Of a stretch of 64,000 nucleotides of DNA, positions 17,999-28,911 are shown piece by piece. Position numbers and translations under genes: made by a program. The notes under the pieces are model-generated. The model ran no database searches. It was not told the origin of the DNA and worked only from the letters and a program-made list of their open reading frames with translations. Numbering within the stretch: the first letter of the stretch is position 1; every line of letters begins with the position of its first letter. Source of the DNA: Fischerella sp. PCC 9431 (GTDB lineage Bacteria; Cyanobacteriota; Cyanobacteriia; Cyanobacteriales; Nostocaceae); NCBI RefSeq assembly GCF_000447295.1, contig NZ_KE650771.1:2560469-2624468 (forward strand). The letters are read 5' to 3'.

Positions 17999-20900
17999 TT
18001 AAACCATCAAACGCAACTGCGAACCTTGCTGGCTTTTGTTCACTTCAATCCGGGCTTGAAAAGCTTCCTTGAGGTGAGGCATATGTGTCACAGTGAGAAT
18101 ACAAGCAAAATCTGGGGCGATCGCATTAATCGCTGCAATCAGGCGATCGCATCCTTCTGCGTCCTGTGTACCAAAGCCTTCATCGACAATTAGCATTTGT
18201 AAAGCAGCCCCGGCACGTTGTGCAAGTAATTTTGCCAAAGCTAAACGAATCGCAAAGTTAATTCTAAACGCTTCGCCACCAGAATAAGTTTCATAGGCTC
18301 GCGTACCCCTAGCATCGGCAATCAAAATATCTAAAGTATCAATTAACTTGCTATTTTTCCTCGTAGCTTTACCGTTACGTCCAGCTTTTTGAGTTACAAA
18401 TTGTACATGCAATTGATTTGCACTCAGCCGCGAAAGTAGTTGATTTGTCTCTGCTTCTAGTTGTGGCAGGACGTTTTCAATCATCAGTGTTTGGATACCA
18501 TTTTTACCAAAAGCTTGGGCAAGTTCATGATAAATACGGTATTGTTCTTTGGCTTGTTGCTGTTGTTGCTGCTGTTGTTCATATTGAGTTTGCAGCATGT
18601 CGAGTTGGTGCGCCATTTGTTCTAAGCGCCCTAATTGGCTGATTTGTTCGTCGAGTTGACGACGCCGAATTGCTAACTGCTGCTCTAAGTCTTGAATTTG
18701 AGCTAGAGGATTGCCTGTTTCTTCAAGTTGACTAATAATACTGTCAATTTGGCTTTTTAATTGTTGCCTTTCTGTCCATCTTGCTTCTAAAGCAACTTCT
18801 AATTCTTGCGCTCTCGTTTTTAATTGCGGATACTGCTGCTGTGCTGCTTGTAGTTGTTGGTGGCGCAATTGCCAACCTTGGGCTTTGCGTACCGCCACAC
18901 GCAGATGATTATGCTCTTCAGTATCATAACCAAGTTCGGCGATAAACTTATCTAAAGCGGCAATTTGTTTCGCACATTCTGAATCTATCGCTTCTTGCTG
19001 AATTCTTGCTTGTAACTGAGCAATTTGAGCTTGCAGTTCTGGTTTTCTTGCTTCTATCTGAGCTTGGCGTTTGGTAGCGTCTCGAATTTGTCCTTGTTTA
19101 ATTTCTGCCCAACGCCAGCGTTCTACTTCACTACGAGCCAGAGCGTGGTCTTGCTCATTATAGTTGAGTTGTTGTAGATAATTTTCTAACTCTTGGAGTT
19201 CGGCTTGTTTGTCGGGTGCATATTCGCTGAGTTGGAGCGATCGCTCTAGTTGATGTTTTTGAGCTGCAATCTCTTGTAATTGTTGCTCAACATCACTTGT
19301 CGCCTGTAATTTCGCTGCTAGTTGTCCTCTTTGTTCGCGTAATGTGTCATAGGGAGACAATTGTTGAGATATATCTCGATATTCTTGTCTGAGTACTTGA
19401 ATTTCTCTATCTGAGACAGCCATTTGTTCTCGGACTACCCACAATTGTCCTTCTGTATCTTTATACTCAGATTTGGTTTTATCTACAACTCGATTCCAGT
19501 GATGTTCATCTAAACTCCTTTCACACAAAGGACAAATAGCATTGGGAGTTTGCAGCATTTGGATTTTTTGCTCTAGTTCTCCCAGCAATCTTTCATAATC
19601 CCGTTGATGAGCTTGCAAGCGTTCAATAAAATTTCGCCGTTCTTGTCCTTTTTCCTGAACTCGTTGTAGATAAACTCGCTTTTTCTCCAATTCTTCAATT
19701 TGGATTGCGACTTCCATCACTGCTTGTTGCAGTTGCGGTTGGCGTCGCTGCTGAGATTGTAATTGGTGTACTGTAGTTTCTAGTTGTTCTAATCGCGCAA
19801 CTAATCCCGCTTGTACCCGTAGAATTTGACTTTGTAAAGTTGCTCGTTGTTGCAGTAAGGGAGAAACTTGTAATTGCAATTCGTCTAATTGAGCGAGACG
19901 TTGACGTGCTGTCGCCAATTTAGACAAAGCTGCTTCAACTTCACTTGATTTATTGAGAGTATGTTGAATTTCTGCTTCTTGCTGGCGTAATGCTTCTAAT
20001 TGCGCTTGCGCTTGTTGCAGTTGCCGTTCAATTTCGTTAATTTGTCTCGTAAGCTGGTGTTGTTTTTGTTGACGGGTAGTTTGAGCGCGGGTATATTCTG
20101 CAAATTTGCTACTTGTGGCTTCTTCTTGAGCTTGGAGATTTTGATATCGGCTGTATCCCGTGGTAATTTCCGTTTCTTGAGCTAATAATTCTTCTAATGT
20201 TGATAGCTGAGTTCCAATTCGTCCCCGTTCGTGTTCGAGGCGATCGCAATCTTGAGTTAAGTTTTGATATTGCTGTCTGACAAAATTTAATTGTTCTTCC
20301 CAATTCTGTCTTTGGTGCTGGACAACTTGCAAACTTTGTAATTTGATTTTCTCAAAACCTTGTACTTGTTGCAGTTGATTGTGTTCGTTTTCTAAGGTGA
20401 CTCGTTGAGTGGCGATCGCTTCTCGTTCTTTGAGTTGAATTTTCATCGACTCCAACGAGCGTTCTAACTCTTCGGCTTTGGCTTTAAACTGACGTGATAA
20501 ATCTTTTGAGCGTTCTTCTAATTCATCATATTGATTAAGCTTTAATAATTCCGCTAAAATTTCCTTGCGTTCGCTCGGACGCTTGAGCATGAATTCATCT
20601 GCTCGACCTTGACGCAGGTAAGCAGAGTTAATAAAAGTATCGTAATCTAGTTTAATATGCTGCAAAATTGTATCTTGAGTAGCCCTGACTCCTTTGCCAC
20701 TCAATGAGCTAAACCCTTTTGGTGTTTTGATTTGAAATTCTAAAACACTACCACCACCACGAGCGCGAGTCCGAATCACTCGATAGGTTTGCTGTTGGCT
20801 GGTTCTAAAAATGAAATCTACTTGAACTTCTTTTTCGCCAGTGTGGACAACATCATCTTCAGTATTGGCTCTGCTTTCTCCCCAAATTGCCCAAGTGATC

Positions 20901-21028
20901 GCTTCCAACAAAGAAGATTTACCAGCGCCATTCGCCCCACAAATACAAGCCGTATGCAAGCCGCGAAAATCCAAAGTTGCATCACGGTAACTAAGGAAAT
21001 TTTTCAGAGTTAGTTGAACAGGGATCAT
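17999..21028 (-). CDS. sbcC: SbcC/Rad50-type exonuclease subunit
   Basis: 1009 aa SMC-like ATPase. N-terminal Walker A GANGAGKSSLLEA (residues 34-46), two long Gln-rich coiled-coil arms, a central zinc hook CPLC (near residue 500), and a C-terminal ABC signature (YSGGEAFRINFA) with Walker B LIVDEGFGTQD. With SbcD/Mre11 it resects DNA ends and hairpins. No sbcD gene is adjacent. The hairpin-rich repeats of the next region are the kind of DNA this complex processes, though proximity proves nothing. Confidence 0.94.
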   Translation of the reverse strand: MIPVQLTLKNFLSYRDATLDFRGLHTACICGANGAGKSSLLEAITWAIWGESRANTEDDVVHTGEKEVQVDFIFRTSQQQTYRVIRTRARGGGSVLEFQIKTPKGFSSLSGKGVRATQDTILQHIKLDYDTFINSAYLRQGRADEFMLKRPSERKEILAELLKLNQYDELEERSKDLSRQFKAKAEELERSLESMKIQLKEREAIATQRVTLENEHNQLQQVQGFEKIKLQSLQVVQHQRQNWEEQLNFVRQQYQNLTQDCDRLEHERGRIGTQLSTLEELLAQETEITTGYSRYQNLQAQEEATSSKFAEYTRAQTTRQQKQHQLTRQINEIERQLQQAQAQLEALRQQEAEIQHTLNKSSEVEAALSKLATARQRLAQLDELQLQVSPLLQQRATLQSQILRVQAGLVARLEQLETTVHQLQSQQRRQPQLQQAVMEVAIQIEELEKKRVYLQRVQEKGQERRNFIERLQAHQRDYERLLGELEQKIQMLQTPNAICPLCERSLDEHHWNRVVDKTKSEYKDTEGQLWVVREQMAVSDREIQVLRQEYRDISQQLSPYDTLREQRGQLAAKLQATSDVEQQLQEIAAQKHQLERSLQLSEYAPDKQAELQELENYLQQLNYNEQDHALARSEVERWRWAEIKQGQIRDATKRQAQIEARKPELQAQIAQLQARIQQEAIDSECAKQIAALDKFIAELGYDTEEHNHLRVAVRKAQGWQLRHQQLQAAQQQYPQLKTRAQELEVALEARWTERQQLKSQIDSIISQLEETGNPLAQIQDLEQQLAIRRRQLDEQISQLGRLEQMAHQLDMLQTQYEQQQQQQQQAKEQYRIYHELAQAFGKNGIQTLMIENVLPQLEAETNQLLSRLSANQLHVQFVTQKAGRNGKATRKNSKLIDTLDILIADARGTRAYETYSGGEAFRINFAIRLALAKLLAQRAGAALQMLIVDEGFGTQDAEGCDRLIAAINAIAPDFACILTVTHMPHLKEAFQARIEVNKSQQGSQLRLMV

Positions 21029-21629: not shown

Positions 21630-21839
21630 CGATACAATCGCAATGTAACCCGATACAATCGCAATGTAACCCGATGCAATCGTAATGTAACCCGATACAA
21701 TCGCAATGTGACCCGATACAATCGCAATGTGACCCGATACAATCGCAATGTAACCCGATACAATCGCAATGTAACCCGATACAATCGTAATGTAACCCGA
21801 TACAATCGCAATGTAACCCGATACATTAACAATGCAGGT
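21630..21839. repeat. 21-bp tandem repeat array beside the NACHT cassette
   Basis: Nine contiguous 21-bp units (21630-21818), consensus CGATACAATCGCAATGTAACC with one to three substitutions, then a diverged tenth unit. Similar words (CATTAACAATGyAGG) cap both ends, at about 21614 and 21824. There are no spacers, so it is not CRISPR. Each unit has CGAT/ATCG arms. Because 21 is a multiple of three, both strands stay open (7-residue repeats), but no start or composition supports a protein. Confidence 0.92.
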
Positions 21840-21885
21840 CGATACATCAAGTCTTTGGCGGGGTTAATTGGTTGCGATCGCCTTT
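21818..21885. repeat. 68-bp direct repeat, copy 1 (left of the NACHT cassette)
   Basis: Identical at 67 of 68 positions to 24543-24610, in the same orientation; the difference is C at 21848 against T at 24573. This copy overlaps the end of the 21-bp array and the last 13 codons or so of the 56-aa gene. Confidence 0.95.
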
Positions 21886-22017
21886 CTCTTCATCATCATT
21901 ATTATCTTCATCTTTTGGCTGTAGTTCCTGCATCACCCAATAGAGAATTGCATCAGCAGACTTTTCCACAGCCCAAGCAATTAAAGCACCAACTACCACC
22001 ATTAAAATCGATTCCAT
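21847..22017 (-). CDS. 56-aa probable single-pass membrane protein, divergent from the NACHT gene
   Basis: Translation from ATG 22017 gives a hydrophobic N-terminus (MESILMVVVGALIAWAVEKS), then ADAILYWVMQELQ, and an acidic Asp/Glu/Asn-rich tail ending in TPPKT. It looks like one short membrane helix with a charged cytoplasmic tail. I recognise no family. It is divergent from the NACHT gene with about 160 bp between starts, and its 3' end lies in the direct repeat. Copy 2 of the repeat keeps the tail codons and a stop but lacks the membrane part. It could be a small partner, a regulator, or not translated. Confidence 0.5.
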   Translation of the reverse strand: MESILMVVVGALIAWAVEKSADAILYWVMQELQPKDEDNNDDEEKGDRNQLTPPKT

Positions 22018-22177
22018 AACTCATGTTCAACTCGACTCTTATAAAGTCGCGCAAATCCAGTCTGAGCAAGGGATATGGGAAGTATGACTTATGTCAGAGT
22101 TGTGTATGAGTTGTGTAATTTCGGAAACAGCAAGCTGAACACTGTGGTTACAATTGTGGAAAGTGAGTTGTGTAGGT

Positions 22178-24508
22178 ATGGCAGAGCGATCGCTTAAAGC
22201 ATCTGAAAAAGGTATACAGTTAGCTCGACAAGCATTTAATACATTAGGAATTACACAAGAAACATTTGCAGAGCAAAGGGTTGAGTGTAGTCGCTCAACA
22301 ATCTCCAACTTCTTTAGGGGTAAACCAGTTAATCGAGAAATCTTTGTCAAAATTTGCAGTATTCTACATTTGAAATTAGAAGAAGTCACAGAATTTCCTA
22401 AAGTAGCTGAACCAACTGAGGAAGAAAACCAAGCTTTTGATATAGATACATTAGTACAAGAAGTACGCGAAAAAATAAAACCCCACATCCAAGAGCGCTG
22501 CGGTACAATGCGGGTGCTGGATATGACTCAGCCAATCAAATTGAATGAAATTTATACCAGCATCAATATATTAGAGAAAATTACCGGACGACAACGGCTA
22601 ACAATTGATAACTTATTACAACAGTGTGGTAAAGAAGATTTTGATCACTTTGGACTAGTAAAAATCACTGGAAAGCGAATTCCGGGATTAGAAGCAGTTC
22701 AAAAATATTCCAAGCTGATGATTTTGGGAAAACCAGGGGCTGGGAAAACTACTTTTCTAAAGTATTTAGCAATTCAGTGTATTGAGGGCAAATTTAATTC
22801 TCATCTCATACCAATTTTTATCACCCTCAAAGATTTTGCTGAAGCCATTAATCACCCGACTTTACTCAAATATATAATTTCTTCTATTGGATTGGCAAAA
22901 CGTTTGACACTGGCACAAGGTAGACAAGATGTCCACCCTATAAATGTTTCGTTAATTGAAAAATTACTAAGTCAGAGTAGATTACTTATTCTATTTGATG
23001 GTTTGGATGAGGTCAGAGAAGAAGATAAAAACCGCATATTAAATGAAATTCGTTATTTTGTTACCCAATATCATAATAATCAATTCATCATAACGTGCCG
23101 AATCGCGGCATGGGAATATACATTTGAAAATTTTACTGAAGTAGAAGTTGCTGATTTTAATGATGAACAAATTTCTACTTTTGCAATTAACTGGTTTAGA
23201 AGAAAAGCTATCAAAGCAGAGAACTTTATCCAACGCCTTAAAAATAATGACCGAGTTAAGGAACTCGCGACAAATCCTTTATTGTTGACTTTGCTATGTT
23301 TAGCTTTTGAAGAATCAGGGGATTTTCCTGCAAATCGTTCTGAGTTATACAAAGAAGGATTAGACGCGCTGCTGAAAAAATGGGATGCCAATCGTGGTAT
23401 TGAACGCGAGCAAATTTACAAAAAGCTATCAGTTCAGCGTAAGGAGGATTTACTTAGCAAAATTGCTTTAACTACGTTTGAGCAAGGAGACTACTTTTTT
23501 AAACAGAAAGCAGCAGAGAGTTACATAATAGATTACATCCGCAATCTACCTAATGCTAGTACTGACGAAGAAATACTACAACTTGATAGTGAAAAAGTAT
23601 TGAAGTCTATTGAGGCACAACATGGACTGTTAGTGGAACGAGCAAAAGGTATTTACTCATTCTCTCATTTGACTTTTCACGAGTATTTCACAGCTAGAGA
23701 ATTTATTGTTGTTAAACAGTCATCAGAAGACGCATTGCAAACTTTGGTTAGCAATATCATTATTAAACGTTGGCGAGAAGTATTTTTACTCGCGGTTGGG
23801 ATGTCACCAAAAGCAGATCGTCTATTGCTGTTGATGAAGCAAAAAATTGATGGTTTGTTAGCAGAAGATGATTTGCAACAGCTTCTCACATGGGTTCAAG
23901 AAAAATTTGAATCTGTAGAAGCACCATATAAACCTGCTGCTATTCGAGCCTTTTACTTAGACCCCTCCCTCGACCTCAACCTCTCCCGATCCCTCTCCCT
24001 CTCTCGATCCCTCTCTCGATCCCTCGACCTCAACCTTGACCTCAACCTCTCCCGATCCCTCTCTCGATCCCTCGACCTCAACCTTGACCTCGACCTCAAC
24101 CTTGACCTCGACCTCAACCTCGGCTTCAACCTCTTCCTCGACCTCTCCCGATCCCTCGACCTCTCCCGATCCCTCGACCATAATCCAGAATTAAAGCGAT
24201 CGCTCCAACAACTCAAAGACCAACTCCCCAACCCAAAGAGTGATTTAGAAGCTCACAAGCATTGGTGGGAGGAAAACGGTCAAGCCTGGACTGAACAACT
24301 CAGAGCCGTCATGATTAAGCATCGCAACATTGGTCATGGTTGGCAATTCAGCGAATCTCAAAAAGAATTATTGCAAAAGTACTACGATGCTAATAAATTG
24401 CTGGTAGATTGCCTCAATAGTGATTGTTATGTCAGCCGTGAAGTGCGAGAGAAAATAGAGGATGAGTTGCTATTACCAATTGCAGAAATTAAAAAGCGTC
24501 AGCAATAG
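22178..24508 (+). CDS. HTH-NACHT NTPase (bNACHT/STAND, putative antiphage protein)
   Basis: 776 aa from ATG 22178; the TTG eight codons upstream is less likely. Residues 1-75 form an XRE-like HTH (TQETFAEQRVECSRSTISNF). NACHT core: Walker A GKPGAGKTT (184-192), Walker B LILFDGLDE (270-278), sensor IITCRIAAW, winged-helix NPLLLTLL and FSHLTFHEYFTARE. A repetitive LDLN/LSRS tract (about 596-666) follows. The C-terminal 110 residues (HWWEENGQAW onward) look like a NACHT-associated helical domain. Bacterial NACHT proteins include proven antiphage NLR relatives. The HTH in place of a clear nuclease or protease effector leaves the output unclear: it may bind DNA or serve only as an adaptor. The gene is bracketed by 68-bp direct repeats. 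Confidence 0.87.
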   Translation: MAERSLKASEKGIQLARQAFNTLGITQETFAEQRVECSRSTISNFFRGKPVNREIFVKICSILHLKLEEVTEFPKVAEPTEEENQAFDIDTLVQEVREKIKPHIQERCGTMRVLDMTQPIKLNEIYTSINILEKITGRQRLTIDNLLQQCGKEDFDHFGLVKITGKRIPGLEAVQKYSKLMILGKPGAGKTTFLKYLAIQCIEGKFNSHLIPIFITLKDFAEAINHPTLLKYIISSIGLAKRLTLAQGRQDVHPINVSLIEKLLSQSRLLILFDGLDEVREEDKNRILNEIRYFVTQYHNNQFIITCRIAAWEYTFENFTEVEVADFNDEQISTFAINWFRRKAIKAENFIQRLKNNDRVKELATNPLLLTLLCLAFEESGDFPANRSELYKEGLDALLKKWDANRGIEREQIYKKLSVQRKEDLLSKIALTTFEQGDYFFKQKAAESYIIDYIRNLPNASTDEEILQLDSEKVLKSIEAQHGLLVERAKGIYSFSHLTFHEYFTAREFIVVKQSSEDALQTLVSNIIIKRWREVFLLAVGMSPKADRLLLLMKQKIDGLLAEDDLQQLLTWVQEKFESVEAPYKPAAIRAFYLDPSLDLNLSRSLSLSRSLSRSLDLNLDLNLSRSLSRSLDLNLDLDLNLDLDLNLGFNLFLDLSRSLDLSRSLDHNPELKRSLQQLKDQLPNPKSDLEAHKHWWEENGQAWTEQLRAVMIKHRNIGHGWQFSESQKELLQKYYDANKLLVDCLNSDCYVSREVREKIEDELLLPIAEIKKRQQ
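23967..24179 (+). repeat. CT-rich low-complexity coding repeat inside the NACHT gene
   Basis: Interspersed GACCTCAACCT and TCCCGATCCCTC words on a polypyrimidine strand encode alternating LDLN and LSRS/SRSL residues. The reverse strand also stays open, giving Arg/Ser- and Glu/Val-rich shadow ORFs. Such tracts are prone to copy-number change. Confidence 0.9.
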
Positions 24509-24542
24509 TGTCACGCCAGTGGTCTGCTGGTGCGTTAGTAAG

Positions 24543-24610
24543 CCGATACATTAACAATGCAGGTCGATACATTAAGTCTTTGGCGGGGTTAATTGGTTGC
24601 GATCGCCTTT
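24543..24610. repeat. 68-bp direct repeat, copy 2 (right of the NACHT gene)
   Basis: Second copy of 21818-21885 (67/68 identical, same orientation), beginning 34 bp after the NACHT stop. The 21-bp array is not repeated here. Confidence 0.95.
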
Positions 24611-24680: not shown

Positions 24681-24965
24681 ATGGCAAAAGCAATCTGGAA
24701 TGGTACTGTTTTAGCTGAAAGTGATAATACCGTTGTCGTGGAAGGTAATCACTACTTTCCTGCTGACTCTATTGAGAAACAGTATTTCAAAGAGAGTGAC
24801 ACCCACACCACTTGTCCTTGGAAAGGTGTTGCTAGCTACTATACTATTGAGGTTGATGGACAAGTAAACAAAGATGCAGCTTGGTACTATCCTACCACCA
24901 AAGAGAAGGCAAAGCAGATTGAGGGTTATGTTGCTTTCTGGCGGGGTGTGAAAGTCGAAGCTTAG
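24681..24965 (+). CDS. DUF427 domain protein
   Basis: 94 aa from ATG 24681. It has the compact all-beta DUF427 pattern: WNGTVLAESDNTVVVEGNHYFP near the N-terminus, DTHTTCPWKGVASYY in the centre, then AAWYYPTTKEKA and a final VAFWRGVKVE. DUF427 proteins are widespread; no reaction is firmly known to me. It lies 71 bp after copy 2 of the 68-bp repeat and ends before a group of palindromes. Confidence 0.88.
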   Translation: MAKAIWNGTVLAESDNTVVVEGNHYFPADSIEKQYFKESDTHTTCPWKGVASYYTIEVDGQVNKDAAWYYPTTKEKAKQIEGYVAFWRGVKVEA

Positions 24966-26288: not shown

Positions 26289-27155
26289 TTAAAGGGGTAA
26301 ATATTGATACTTAATACAACCCCACAATTGTCCTCCACGCCAAGCAAAACTGATTAACCATTTGGCTAAACTTTCTTTGTCACGGATTTGCAAAAGTAAA
26401 ACTTGCAGAGACAGGATCACTGATGTTTTTAACAAAGTTTTCCATGTCACCATTTGTGGCATACCAAGGGGACGATGTTTTTTATACACTAAAATGACAC
26501 CTTTACCCACATCCCAACTGCGACGATATATGGCATCTAAGTTATTACGTAACCGGATATAAGCGATCGCATCTGGTACATAGTGAAGTTTAGTTCCGAG
26601 ATATATTGCTCTCCAGCAATAGTCTACATCTTCACTTTGATATAGCGTTTCATCAAAACCACCAATTTTTTCATGAATGGCACGTTTGATGCCTAAATTG
26701 CCGCTACCTGCAAATGGTAAGTAGTATGTATTTTCCATAACTCCAGTACCATTTTCAAGTTGATAACACTTTACTACCCAGGGATGATTTAACTTGTTGT
26801 AATCATCATGGCCAGCAACAAAGTCGTATTGGGAAAGCGCTTCCCCCATTGCTGCTAACCATCCCGGTGCAACTTCATCATCAGCGTCAATGAATATCAG
26901 TGATTCACCTTTTGCTGCTTTTGCACCAATATTGCGAGCGTGTGATGCACCTCTACGATCAGATGCATCAACGATCTGCAAATTAGGTAAACTCATCTGA
27001 TATTTTTCGACAATTGATAATGTGCTGTCAGTAGAACCATTGTCAGAAATGATCACTTCCCATGCTTGTGACCATTTTTGATGAACAAGTGCTTCAAGTT
27101 GAACAGCAATAGTTTTCTCTGCATTTAAACACGGTATGACGACACTTACCTTCAT
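26289..27155 (-). CDS. Glycosyltransferase family 2 (copy 1)
   Basis: 288 aa. GT-A fold: the N-terminal VSVVIPCLNAEKTI, the nucleotide-binding ISDNGSTDST, the DxD motif in FIDADDEVAPGW, and a later EDVDYCWR acceptor-side motif. A hydrophobic segment (LQVLLLQI) near the end may associate with the membrane. It is a close paralogue of the next gene upstream, same length and strand. It probably adds a sugar to a cell-surface glycan with the PIG-L deacetylase; substrate unknown. Confidence 0.9.
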   Translation of the reverse strand: MKVSVVIPCLNAEKTIAVQLEALVHQKWSQAWEVIISDNGSTDSTLSIVEKYQMSLPNLQIVDASDRRGASHARNIGAKAAKGESLIFIDADDEVAPGWLAAMGEALSQYDFVAGHDDYNKLNHPWVVKCYQLENGTGVMENTYYLPFAGSGNLGIKRAIHEKIGGFDETLYQSEDVDYCWRAIYLGTKLHYVPDAIAYIRLRNNLDAIYRRSWDVGKGVILVYKKHRPLGMPQMVTWKTLLKTSVILSLQVLLLQIRDKESLAKWLISFAWRGGQLWGCIKYQYLPL

Positions 27156-27522: not shown

Positions 27523-28389
27523 CTAGATCGGCAGATATTTATACTTGATGCAACCGCGTAGCTGTCCTCCCCGCCAAGCAAGACTCATCAACCATCTAGC
27601 GAAACTTTCTTTAGTACGAATTTTCAGAGACAAAAGTTGCAAAACTAAAATTACTGGAGTTTTCACAAACACTTTCCAAGGCATTAATTGTGGCATACCC
27701 AGTTTTCTATGCTTTTTATATAGTAATGCCTCACAAGTACCCATTGTCCAGGCTCTTTTATATAAAGCTTTGAGGTTAGTGCGTAACCGGATATGAGCGA
27801 TCGCCTCTGGTGCGTAATGAAGTTTTGCTCCTGCTTGTTGCACTCTCCAACAGTAATCAACATCTTCTACTTGCAACAGTGTTGTATCAAAGCCATTGAT
27901 TGCATTGTGAAGTGAACGCTTAATTCCCAGATTCCCACCACCTGCAAAGGGTAAGTACGGATTTGGTACAATTCCTGAAGACCAATCTTCTACTTGATAC
28001 CACTCTCTCACTTCTTGGTCATTCAGCTTTTTGTATTCGTGTCTTCCGGTGACAAAATCGTATTGGGAAAGTGCTTCACCCATCGCTGCTAACCATCCAG
28101 GCGCAACTTCGTCGTCCGCATCAACAAATACCAGTGATTCACCTTTGGCGACTTCGGCTGCTAAGTTACGAGCGTTAGCTGCTCCTTTGCGATCAGATGC
28201 ATCAATGATGCGGAGATTCGGTAATGATGCCTGATACTGTTCTACTATAGATAGTGTATTGTCAGTGGAGCCATTATCAGCAATAATTACCTCCCACGAC
28301 TGTGACCATGTTTGATGAGCCAGTGCCTCAAGTTGAACAGCAATAGTATCCGCAGCGTTTAAACACGGTATAATTACGCTTATCTTCAT
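27523..28389 (-). CDS. Glycosyltransferase family 2 (copy 2)
   Basis: 288 aa from ATG 28389; a TTG four codons upstream is also open. It shares the order and most motifs of the neighbouring GT2: ISVIIPCLN, IADNGSTDNT, FVDADDEVAPGW, EDVDYCWR. Strong similarity along the whole length shows a tandem duplication followed by divergence of the acceptor region (about residues 120-145). Equal length supports the chosen start. Confidence 0.9.
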   Translation of the reverse strand: MKISVIIPCLNAADTIAVQLEALAHQTWSQSWEVIIADNGSTDNTLSIVEQYQASLPNLRIIDASDRKGAANARNLAAEVAKGESLVFVDADDEVAPGWLAAMGEALSQYDFVTGRHEYKKLNDQEVREWYQVEDWSSGIVPNPYLPFAGGGNLGIKRSLHNAINGFDTTLLQVEDVDYCWRVQQAGAKLHYAPEAIAHIRLRTNLKALYKRAWTMGTCEALLYKKHRKLGMPQLMPWKVFVKTPVILVLQLLSLKIRTKESFARWLMSLAWRGGQLRGCIKYKYLPI

Positions 28390-28911
28390 ATAATTAAACA
28401 ATACAAATGCCAGTAAATATCCATAATTAAAAATATATAGGTAATTGCCCTTAGCTGAACAAAAAAAACACTTTTCTAGGTAAATTTCACAAATTCTATA
28501 AAATAACTAATTGAACATTAAGAACTAGTAAATAAATTATTTCGGTAAATAATTTTGAGCAATCAACATCAAAATTTCACACAATTAAAAGATAATTTTG
28601 GTATCTTTTATGCTGCAGGTGAATAGGAAATAAGTAACGGCTAACAGCTTAAAGAATATACAATTAATCTTGTGATAGTACTTAACTAATAGTTTTGATT
28701 ATTATTTTTCTTTCAAAATAAGAATTCAGATAGGTAATTATAACAGTAAAAATTTATCTTTTAGTTAAGAGGAGAGAAATTTATATATTTGATTTTTGTT
28801 GGCGTAGCCTGCACTCTGTGCCTAAAAAACACTTTGATTCCTAATATACAGATAAAATAAATGCCAGTGTTCCTGTAGTCACTTTATCTGGACAAAGGGA
28901 TAGAAAAAACC
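28390..28911. other. AT-rich intergenic region between divergent genes
   Basis: 522 bp between the divergent GT2 and permease genes. No gene seen. It must hold both promoters, but I cannot pick one with confidence. Confidence 0.5.

Follow-up and report, generated by a model that had tools for sequence, protein, structure and literature searches.

A NACHT gene and a divergent small membrane-protein gene with helically spaced promoter repeats beside sbcC in Fischerella

MalT is a STAND transcription activator, and afsS, the target of AfsR, is a small gene. AfsR itself is a NOD-containing activator that acts on afsS through 11-bp direct repeats (PMC10936776). By analogy, this is the nearest documented logic to the locus described here, in which an NTPase/oligomerisation module is likewise fused to a putative DNA-binding domain and, as with the AfsR sites spaced 11 or 22 bp (PMC10936776), direct repeats lie upstream of the presumed target gene. 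Unlike in AfsR, the putative DNA-binding domain is of the XRE or of a second type rather than SARP, the NTPase is a NACHT domain rather than an AfsR-type module, the target is a membrane protein, and the regulation is proposed from sequence.

With the bNACHT proteins, which are NLR-related antiphage proteins, the protein studied here shares a central NACHT NTPase with an intact Walker A motif and a helical C-terminal Pfam domain of the NCH kind. It differs from bNACHT25 and bNACHT32, as the available text of PMC12169576 describes them, in having an HTH in place of an N-terminal nuclease, and from the bNACHT proteins of that text in carrying NCH2 and not NCH1 or SNaCT. Its gene also has a divergent small membrane partner, and its match to the NCBIfam family EruA is weak (59.4 bits against a curated cut-off of 1000), which leaves it outside that family. 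Among the partner groups described below, S4 belongs to CyanoTRADDas_TM (PF20712) and S1, the group of our partner, does not; the available text of PMC8195603 does not mention a divergent arrangement with this domain. The recombinase-free islands of E. coli H47 offer a parallel for deletion between short direct repeats without a recombinase of their own; in contrast to what the available text reports of them (PMC5426353), the repeat here forms part of a cargo gene and is confined to one genus. We found no description of the divergent NACHT, small-protein and repeat arrangement in the open-paper literature, and we regard the two-gene NACHT module sharing a proposed operator as the main finding.

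The two genes and their neighbours

We analysed a stretch of 64,000 nucleotides from Fischerella sp. PCC 9431 (the window). The gene for an HTH-NACHT-NCH2 STAND protein occupies positions 22181..24508 on the forward strand and encodes 775 aa from a conserved ATG at 22181. Pfam assigns to it, on the same strand, an N-terminal Cro/C1-type HTH (HTH_3; residues 17-68, 22229..22384), a NACHT domain (residues 179-341, 22715..23203) whose Walker A sequence GKPGAGKT is intact, and an NCH2 domain (residues 671-766, 24191..24478). NACHT (53.9 bits, cut-off 26.7) and NCH2 (146.5 bits, cut-off 27) are above the Pfam cut-offs, HTH_3 only just so (23.5 bits, cut-off 23); HTH_3 is below cut-off at locus L109 and is not among the matches listed for L117. 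On these Pfam domains, a DNA-binding domain is fused to a STAND NTPase, as in AfsR and MalT. A structure model of the full-length protein has a mean pLDDT of 55.8 and was used for the N-terminal helices only; the HTH is helical in it, and the N-terminal helices have a block pLDDT of 73-88. The second N-terminal type, found at other loci, matches GerE weakly (E 0.11), and its fold search against PDB gave no match at E 0.001 or better, the top matches being HTH regulators. PADLOC assigned only PDC-S60 (40.9 bits), over part of the protein.

Between NACHT and NCH2, repeat searches found a low-complexity segment of in-frame DLNLSRSL-type repeats (23956..24190, forward strand), in which homologues differ greatly. 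Their comparison suggests a fast-changing segment that is possibly sensing. Genome G000 has additional NCH2-NACHT genes, with an N-terminus of a different kind (MTGMEPLV type), on the small contigs C3 (51004) and C4 (14288), perhaps plasmids, and a search of a plasmid collection found NACHT relatives on 46 plasmid records.

Divergent to the NACHT gene, a 56-aa gene (21847..22017, reverse strand) encodes a small membrane protein, assigned by homologue search and alignment to the family S1, in which M1, W15, E18, S20 and D22 are invariant among 15 homologues. It has no Pfam match, and so is not a CyanoTRADDas_TM protein. The module's conserved neighbour is sbcC (17999..21028, reverse strand), encoding an SMC/Rad50-type ATPase with Pfam AAA_23, Rad50 zinc hook and SbcC Walker B, and its right neighbour is a DUF427 gene (24681..24965, forward strand; Pfam and the loci of relatives). 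Two adjacent glycosyltransferase-like genes of the window (26289-27155 and 27523-28401) look like a tandem duplication.

Recurrence of the module and its small partners

Of the family genomes, 143 gave an sbcC match, and we surveyed the region upstream of the gene in 80 of them, a non-random choice that included some genomes known to hold NCH2 nearby; three stretches end at contig ends, and the window and G003, a second genome of the genus, were added to give 82 rows. NACHT sequence was present in 17 of the 82 rows, nine of them with S1, and absent from 65; G130 and G143, chosen later for their small-gene matches, raise the NACHT-bearing sbcC loci to 19. The sbcC locus is broken or truncated in G034, G099 and G030.

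We then compared 63 NCH2-NACHT loci, 61 of which had a usable ORF and two of which were dropped. A divergent small membrane ORF, counted if it belonged to a recognised group or was the single candidate at L231, accompanied all 18 sbcC-linked loci and 11 of the 43 others. The remaining 32 have an HTH-like or other N-terminus and no recognised partner; thus the N-terminal domain does not require a partner. The distance from start to start was 136-170 bp in 23 of the 26 partnered loci first assigned. Among 17 named loci, a divergent small ORF was seen in four, those of Nostoc sp. JL34, Microcoleus vaginatus, Nostoc calcicola and Sphaerospermopsis, at a distance of 147-165 bp. Of the four plasmid loci inspected, that of Nostoc sp. 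C057 carries an S4-like gene (158 bp) and that of Nostoc sp. N6 an S5 gene (119 bp); no small gene was seen at such a distance in Calothrix NIES-22, and in Allocoleopsis the locus is cut off by the start of the record. On these comparisons, the module is evidently old and sbcC-linked.

The small membrane partners fall into six sequence groups. The 145 family genomes contain S1 homologues at 15 places, spread over 14 of the genomes, and the examined flanks of 14 of the 15 contain a NACHT/STAND relative, which at L034 is no more than a C-terminal fragment and in four cases is distant (22-27% identity); the fifteenth, in G002, lies at a contig end beside a truncated NACHT start. A profile search for S1, with up to 17 candidates scored per genome, found it in at least four of 388 class genomes, all in the family of the window, and searches of plasmid and phage collections gave no match. 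Neither S1 nor S2 matched Pfam or PHROGs. S1-like small genes were also seen away from sbcC, beside distant NACHT/STAND proteins of another kind (L028, L029, L032 and L038).

At sbcC loci without S1, the same place is taken by S2 (G082, G006, G114, G125, G007, G130 and G143), by an S1b-like ORF (G070) or by S3 (G099 and G030). Partners away from sbcC are S1b (4 loci), S4 (5 loci), S5 (L217) and a single 102-aa candidate (L231). The two S4 members tested match CyanoTRADDas_TM at 76-78 bits (cut-off 24.3). S1 and S1b, joined by one BLAST chain, may be kin. Matches to S2 were found in 53 genomes, the closest mostly beside NACHT genes; the more distant ones that were examined had no NACHT neighbour, and such small proteins are therefore not confined to the module.

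Promoter repeats and exchange of blocks

The divergent promoter in the window contains three 11-bp direct repeats, GTATGACTTAT, GTCAGAGTTGT and GTATGAGTTGT (22082..22114), with a z of about 4.7 against dinucleotide shuffles, which we propose as an operator. Direct repeats at helical spacing thus lie at the promoter of the presumed target gene, as in the AfsR/MalT-like arrangement. We scored the 150 bp upstream of each NACHT start against dinucleotide shuffles, with a threshold of z >=2 at 10 or 11 bp. Repeats in helical phase were found at 24 of 29 partnered loci versus 2 of 32 others (Mann-Whitney p 8e-9), where the loci are related and three of them (L217, L136 and L231) were reassigned after looking, so that p-values are optimistic; before reassignment, the counts were 23 of 26 and 3 of 35. 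L217, first called a partnerless locus with repeats, turned out to have a small gene with 75% identity to the neighbour of a related NACHT gene on a Nostoc plasmid. When the loci were collapsed to promoter clusters, formed before reassignment (9 versus 19), p was 0.001, and of the 22 period pairs tried with these clusters only 10/11 and 11/12 gave p <0.01. Five partnered loci are without clear repeats (L224, L144, L109, L136 and L231), and two partnerless ones reach a z of 2.4 (L234 and L258).

The period goes with the N-terminal type of the NACHT protein: MQPLP/MSLPE types have 10 bp and XRE-like types 11 bp, the exceptions being L144, L224 and L109, which have no clear repeats, and three S1 loci of the MAERSL type, which score higher at 12. 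Promoter clusters hold one N-terminal type and several small families, and one cluster with a single N-terminal type includes S1, S1b and S2 partners. By these groupings, promoter type follows the NACHT N-terminal domain and not the small protein.

Pairwise comparison located the breakpoints. G082 and G006 have the small gene (85%) and the NACHT core in common, and nothing matches from -142 to +316; G082 and G070 match from -138 into the NACHT gene, and their small genes do not match. The breakpoints thus separate the small gene from a block made up of the promoter and the N-terminal ~105 codons. As sequence comparisons, these patterns show both units being swapped, and we read them as an operator co-inherited with its putative DNA-binding domain, the small protein being an exchangeable output.

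In the model that we favour, one promoter with repeats one helical turn apart serves two divergent genes, for a small membrane protein and for a NACHT protein whose N-terminal domain would bind DNA. Infection would be sensed by the NACHT protein, which would change its nucleotide state and oligomerise; its DNA-binding domains, arrayed at helical spacing, would then occupy the repeats, and this occupancy would switch the expression both of the small-protein gene and of the NACHT gene itself. The small protein would exert its effect at the membrane and probably harm the infected cell. We see about an even chance that this reading holds as a whole: a two-gene STAND module rather than a mobile element would make up the 2.7-kb segment, and it would work as an AfsR/MalT-like switch in which oligomers of the activated NACHT protein, once bound to the repeats, control a membrane effector.

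The chief rival, which we consider rather unlikely, is that the repeats serve plain autoregulation: the NACHT protein would repress its own promoter through them and otherwise be a classic NLR, with the small protein as a partner by direct contact, either a recruited pore or a guarded membrane target. The repeats could serve such a role; the divergent promoter serves both genes, and XRE-type HTH domains are often repressors. The bNACHT proteins known from experiments act by protein effector domains, according to the available text of PMC12169576. Against it, the promoter is swapped together with the N-terminal domain independently of the small gene; the small protein and the NACHT N-terminus are therefore not co-inherited, as would be expected for contact via that domain, though contact through other domains of the NACHT protein would still fit.

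Flanking repeats and the history of the locus

The original prediction had described the segment as a candidate defence cassette, exchangeable by homologous recombination, between two 68-bp copies in the same orientation that differ at one base. The copies are as described (67/68 identical), and a repeat search of the window extended them to 73 nt at 21813..21885 and 24538..24610, of which 71/73 are identical (97%). A similarity search placed the whole 68-mer at only two sites in the window's own genome (E 4.6e-29 and 7.3e-28), a match far beyond chance. Its first ~33 nt form the final unit of a tandem array with a 21-bp period (21630..21825, 9.3 copies by tandem-repeat search) and give partial matches at many places in the four genomes of the genus. 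The 21-bp family is scattered through the genus, at this array and at many places in G000-G003. Positions 21847-21885 of the left copy are the last 13 codons, stop included, of the 56-aa gene, so that this copy does not lie outside that gene. As had been noted, the ORF list of the segment contains no recombinase-like ORF between the copies.

The tail of the window's small protein, KGDRNQLTPPKT, resembles in alignment that of a homologue in another genus, G074 (KRDENQLNSSD). The left copy is therefore probably the original, and the right copy, like that of G003, a displaced tail; the repeat would have arisen as a displaced copy of the 3' end of the small gene plus an array unit.

G003 has the predicted empty site: sbcC, the array, one 68-mer (91%) and DUF427 follow one another, with neither the NACHT gene nor the 56-aa gene. 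To the left of the single copy lies the array, as beside the left copy of the window, and to its right DUF427, as beside the right copy. These are the flanks expected after recombination between two copies, which thus plausibly removed both genes and left one copy as the prediction proposed. A virgin insertion site was considered and rejected, since the translated copy gives the last 12 residues of the small protein, identical. The site was therefore occupied before and reads best as a scar of loss. Such repeat-mediated loss is ordinary recombination and not new, having precedents in the available text of PMC5426353 and PMC6265443.

Remnants occur elsewhere. In G002, the small gene is divided between the ends of two short contigs (L069 and L022), which also hold the left copy and which we infer to adjoin; the match to the NACHT gene ends after about nine codons, next to a DAHP-synthase-like gene. 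The right copy of G002, a diverged one, has another context, with DUF427 beside it and unrelated genes upstream. A transposase-like fragment was seen by eye near this right copy (L023). S2 tails or fragments remain beside sbcC without an intact NACHT gene in G083, G072 and G064 (L261, L262 and L263), like the scar in G003, and an S2 gene is kept beside a NACHT fragment in G154 (L264). DUF427 adjoins sbcC without the module also in G017 and G061, with no obvious scar by eye. The sbcC tree is ((G000,G002),G003),G001, with modest support (83-84% bootstrap), and its topology alone leaves the direction of change unfixed. Among the five repeat copies, seven columns are informative; at some bases the two copies of G000 agree with each other, as do the two of G002, and the two genomes differ, a hint, on very little sequence, that copies were homogenised within each.

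An excised circle carrying both genes that enters and leaves a single 68-bp site would fit the near-identical copies of the window genome, their apparent homogenisation and the single-copy site with its expected flanks, and it could re-insert at a scar like that of G003. We nevertheless consider this exchangeable cassette improbable, because the G003 site keeps the small gene's tail, no different gene was seen between the same repeats among the four genomes of the genus, and a search of 16 other sbcC-linked NACHT modules at the chosen threshold detected no flanking direct repeats in any of them, which speaks against such repeats as a general trait. Exchange through excised circles is thus unsupported by these comparisons; exchange at the locus is real in other units, one being the small gene and the other the promoter plus the N-terminal domain of the NACHT protein. 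A toxin-antitoxin-like unit, in which the small protein would be a toxin and its repressor or antitoxin the NACHT-HTH protein, would suit a small hydrophobic protein with a divergent HTH partner and patchy distribution, and is very unlikely, since an unrepressed toxin should not persist, unless inactive, beside the truncated NACHT gene of G002, where the small-gene frame is open on its contig, or the NACHT fragment of G154.

Returning to the switch model, we suggest, tentatively and at somewhat less than even probability, that NACHT proteins of filamentous cyanobacteria serve as transcription switches that infection triggers. Oligomerisation would array the DNA-binding domains of the NLR-like protein on the repeats in helical phase, an inflammasome-like step on DNA that would turn on a swappable small membrane effector, the operator and the DNA-binding domain being exchanged as one unit and the effectors as another. 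If this is true, the effector of an NLR-like immune protein would be a separate membrane protein reached through transcription, instead of a domain fused to it. Many partner-bearing NACHT genes would gain a testable function and an operator, and there would be a rule for finding partners, as here the repeats pointed to the missed partner gene of L217. The history of the flanking repeat, for its part, suggests how a defence-type locus can be lost and leave a readable scar.
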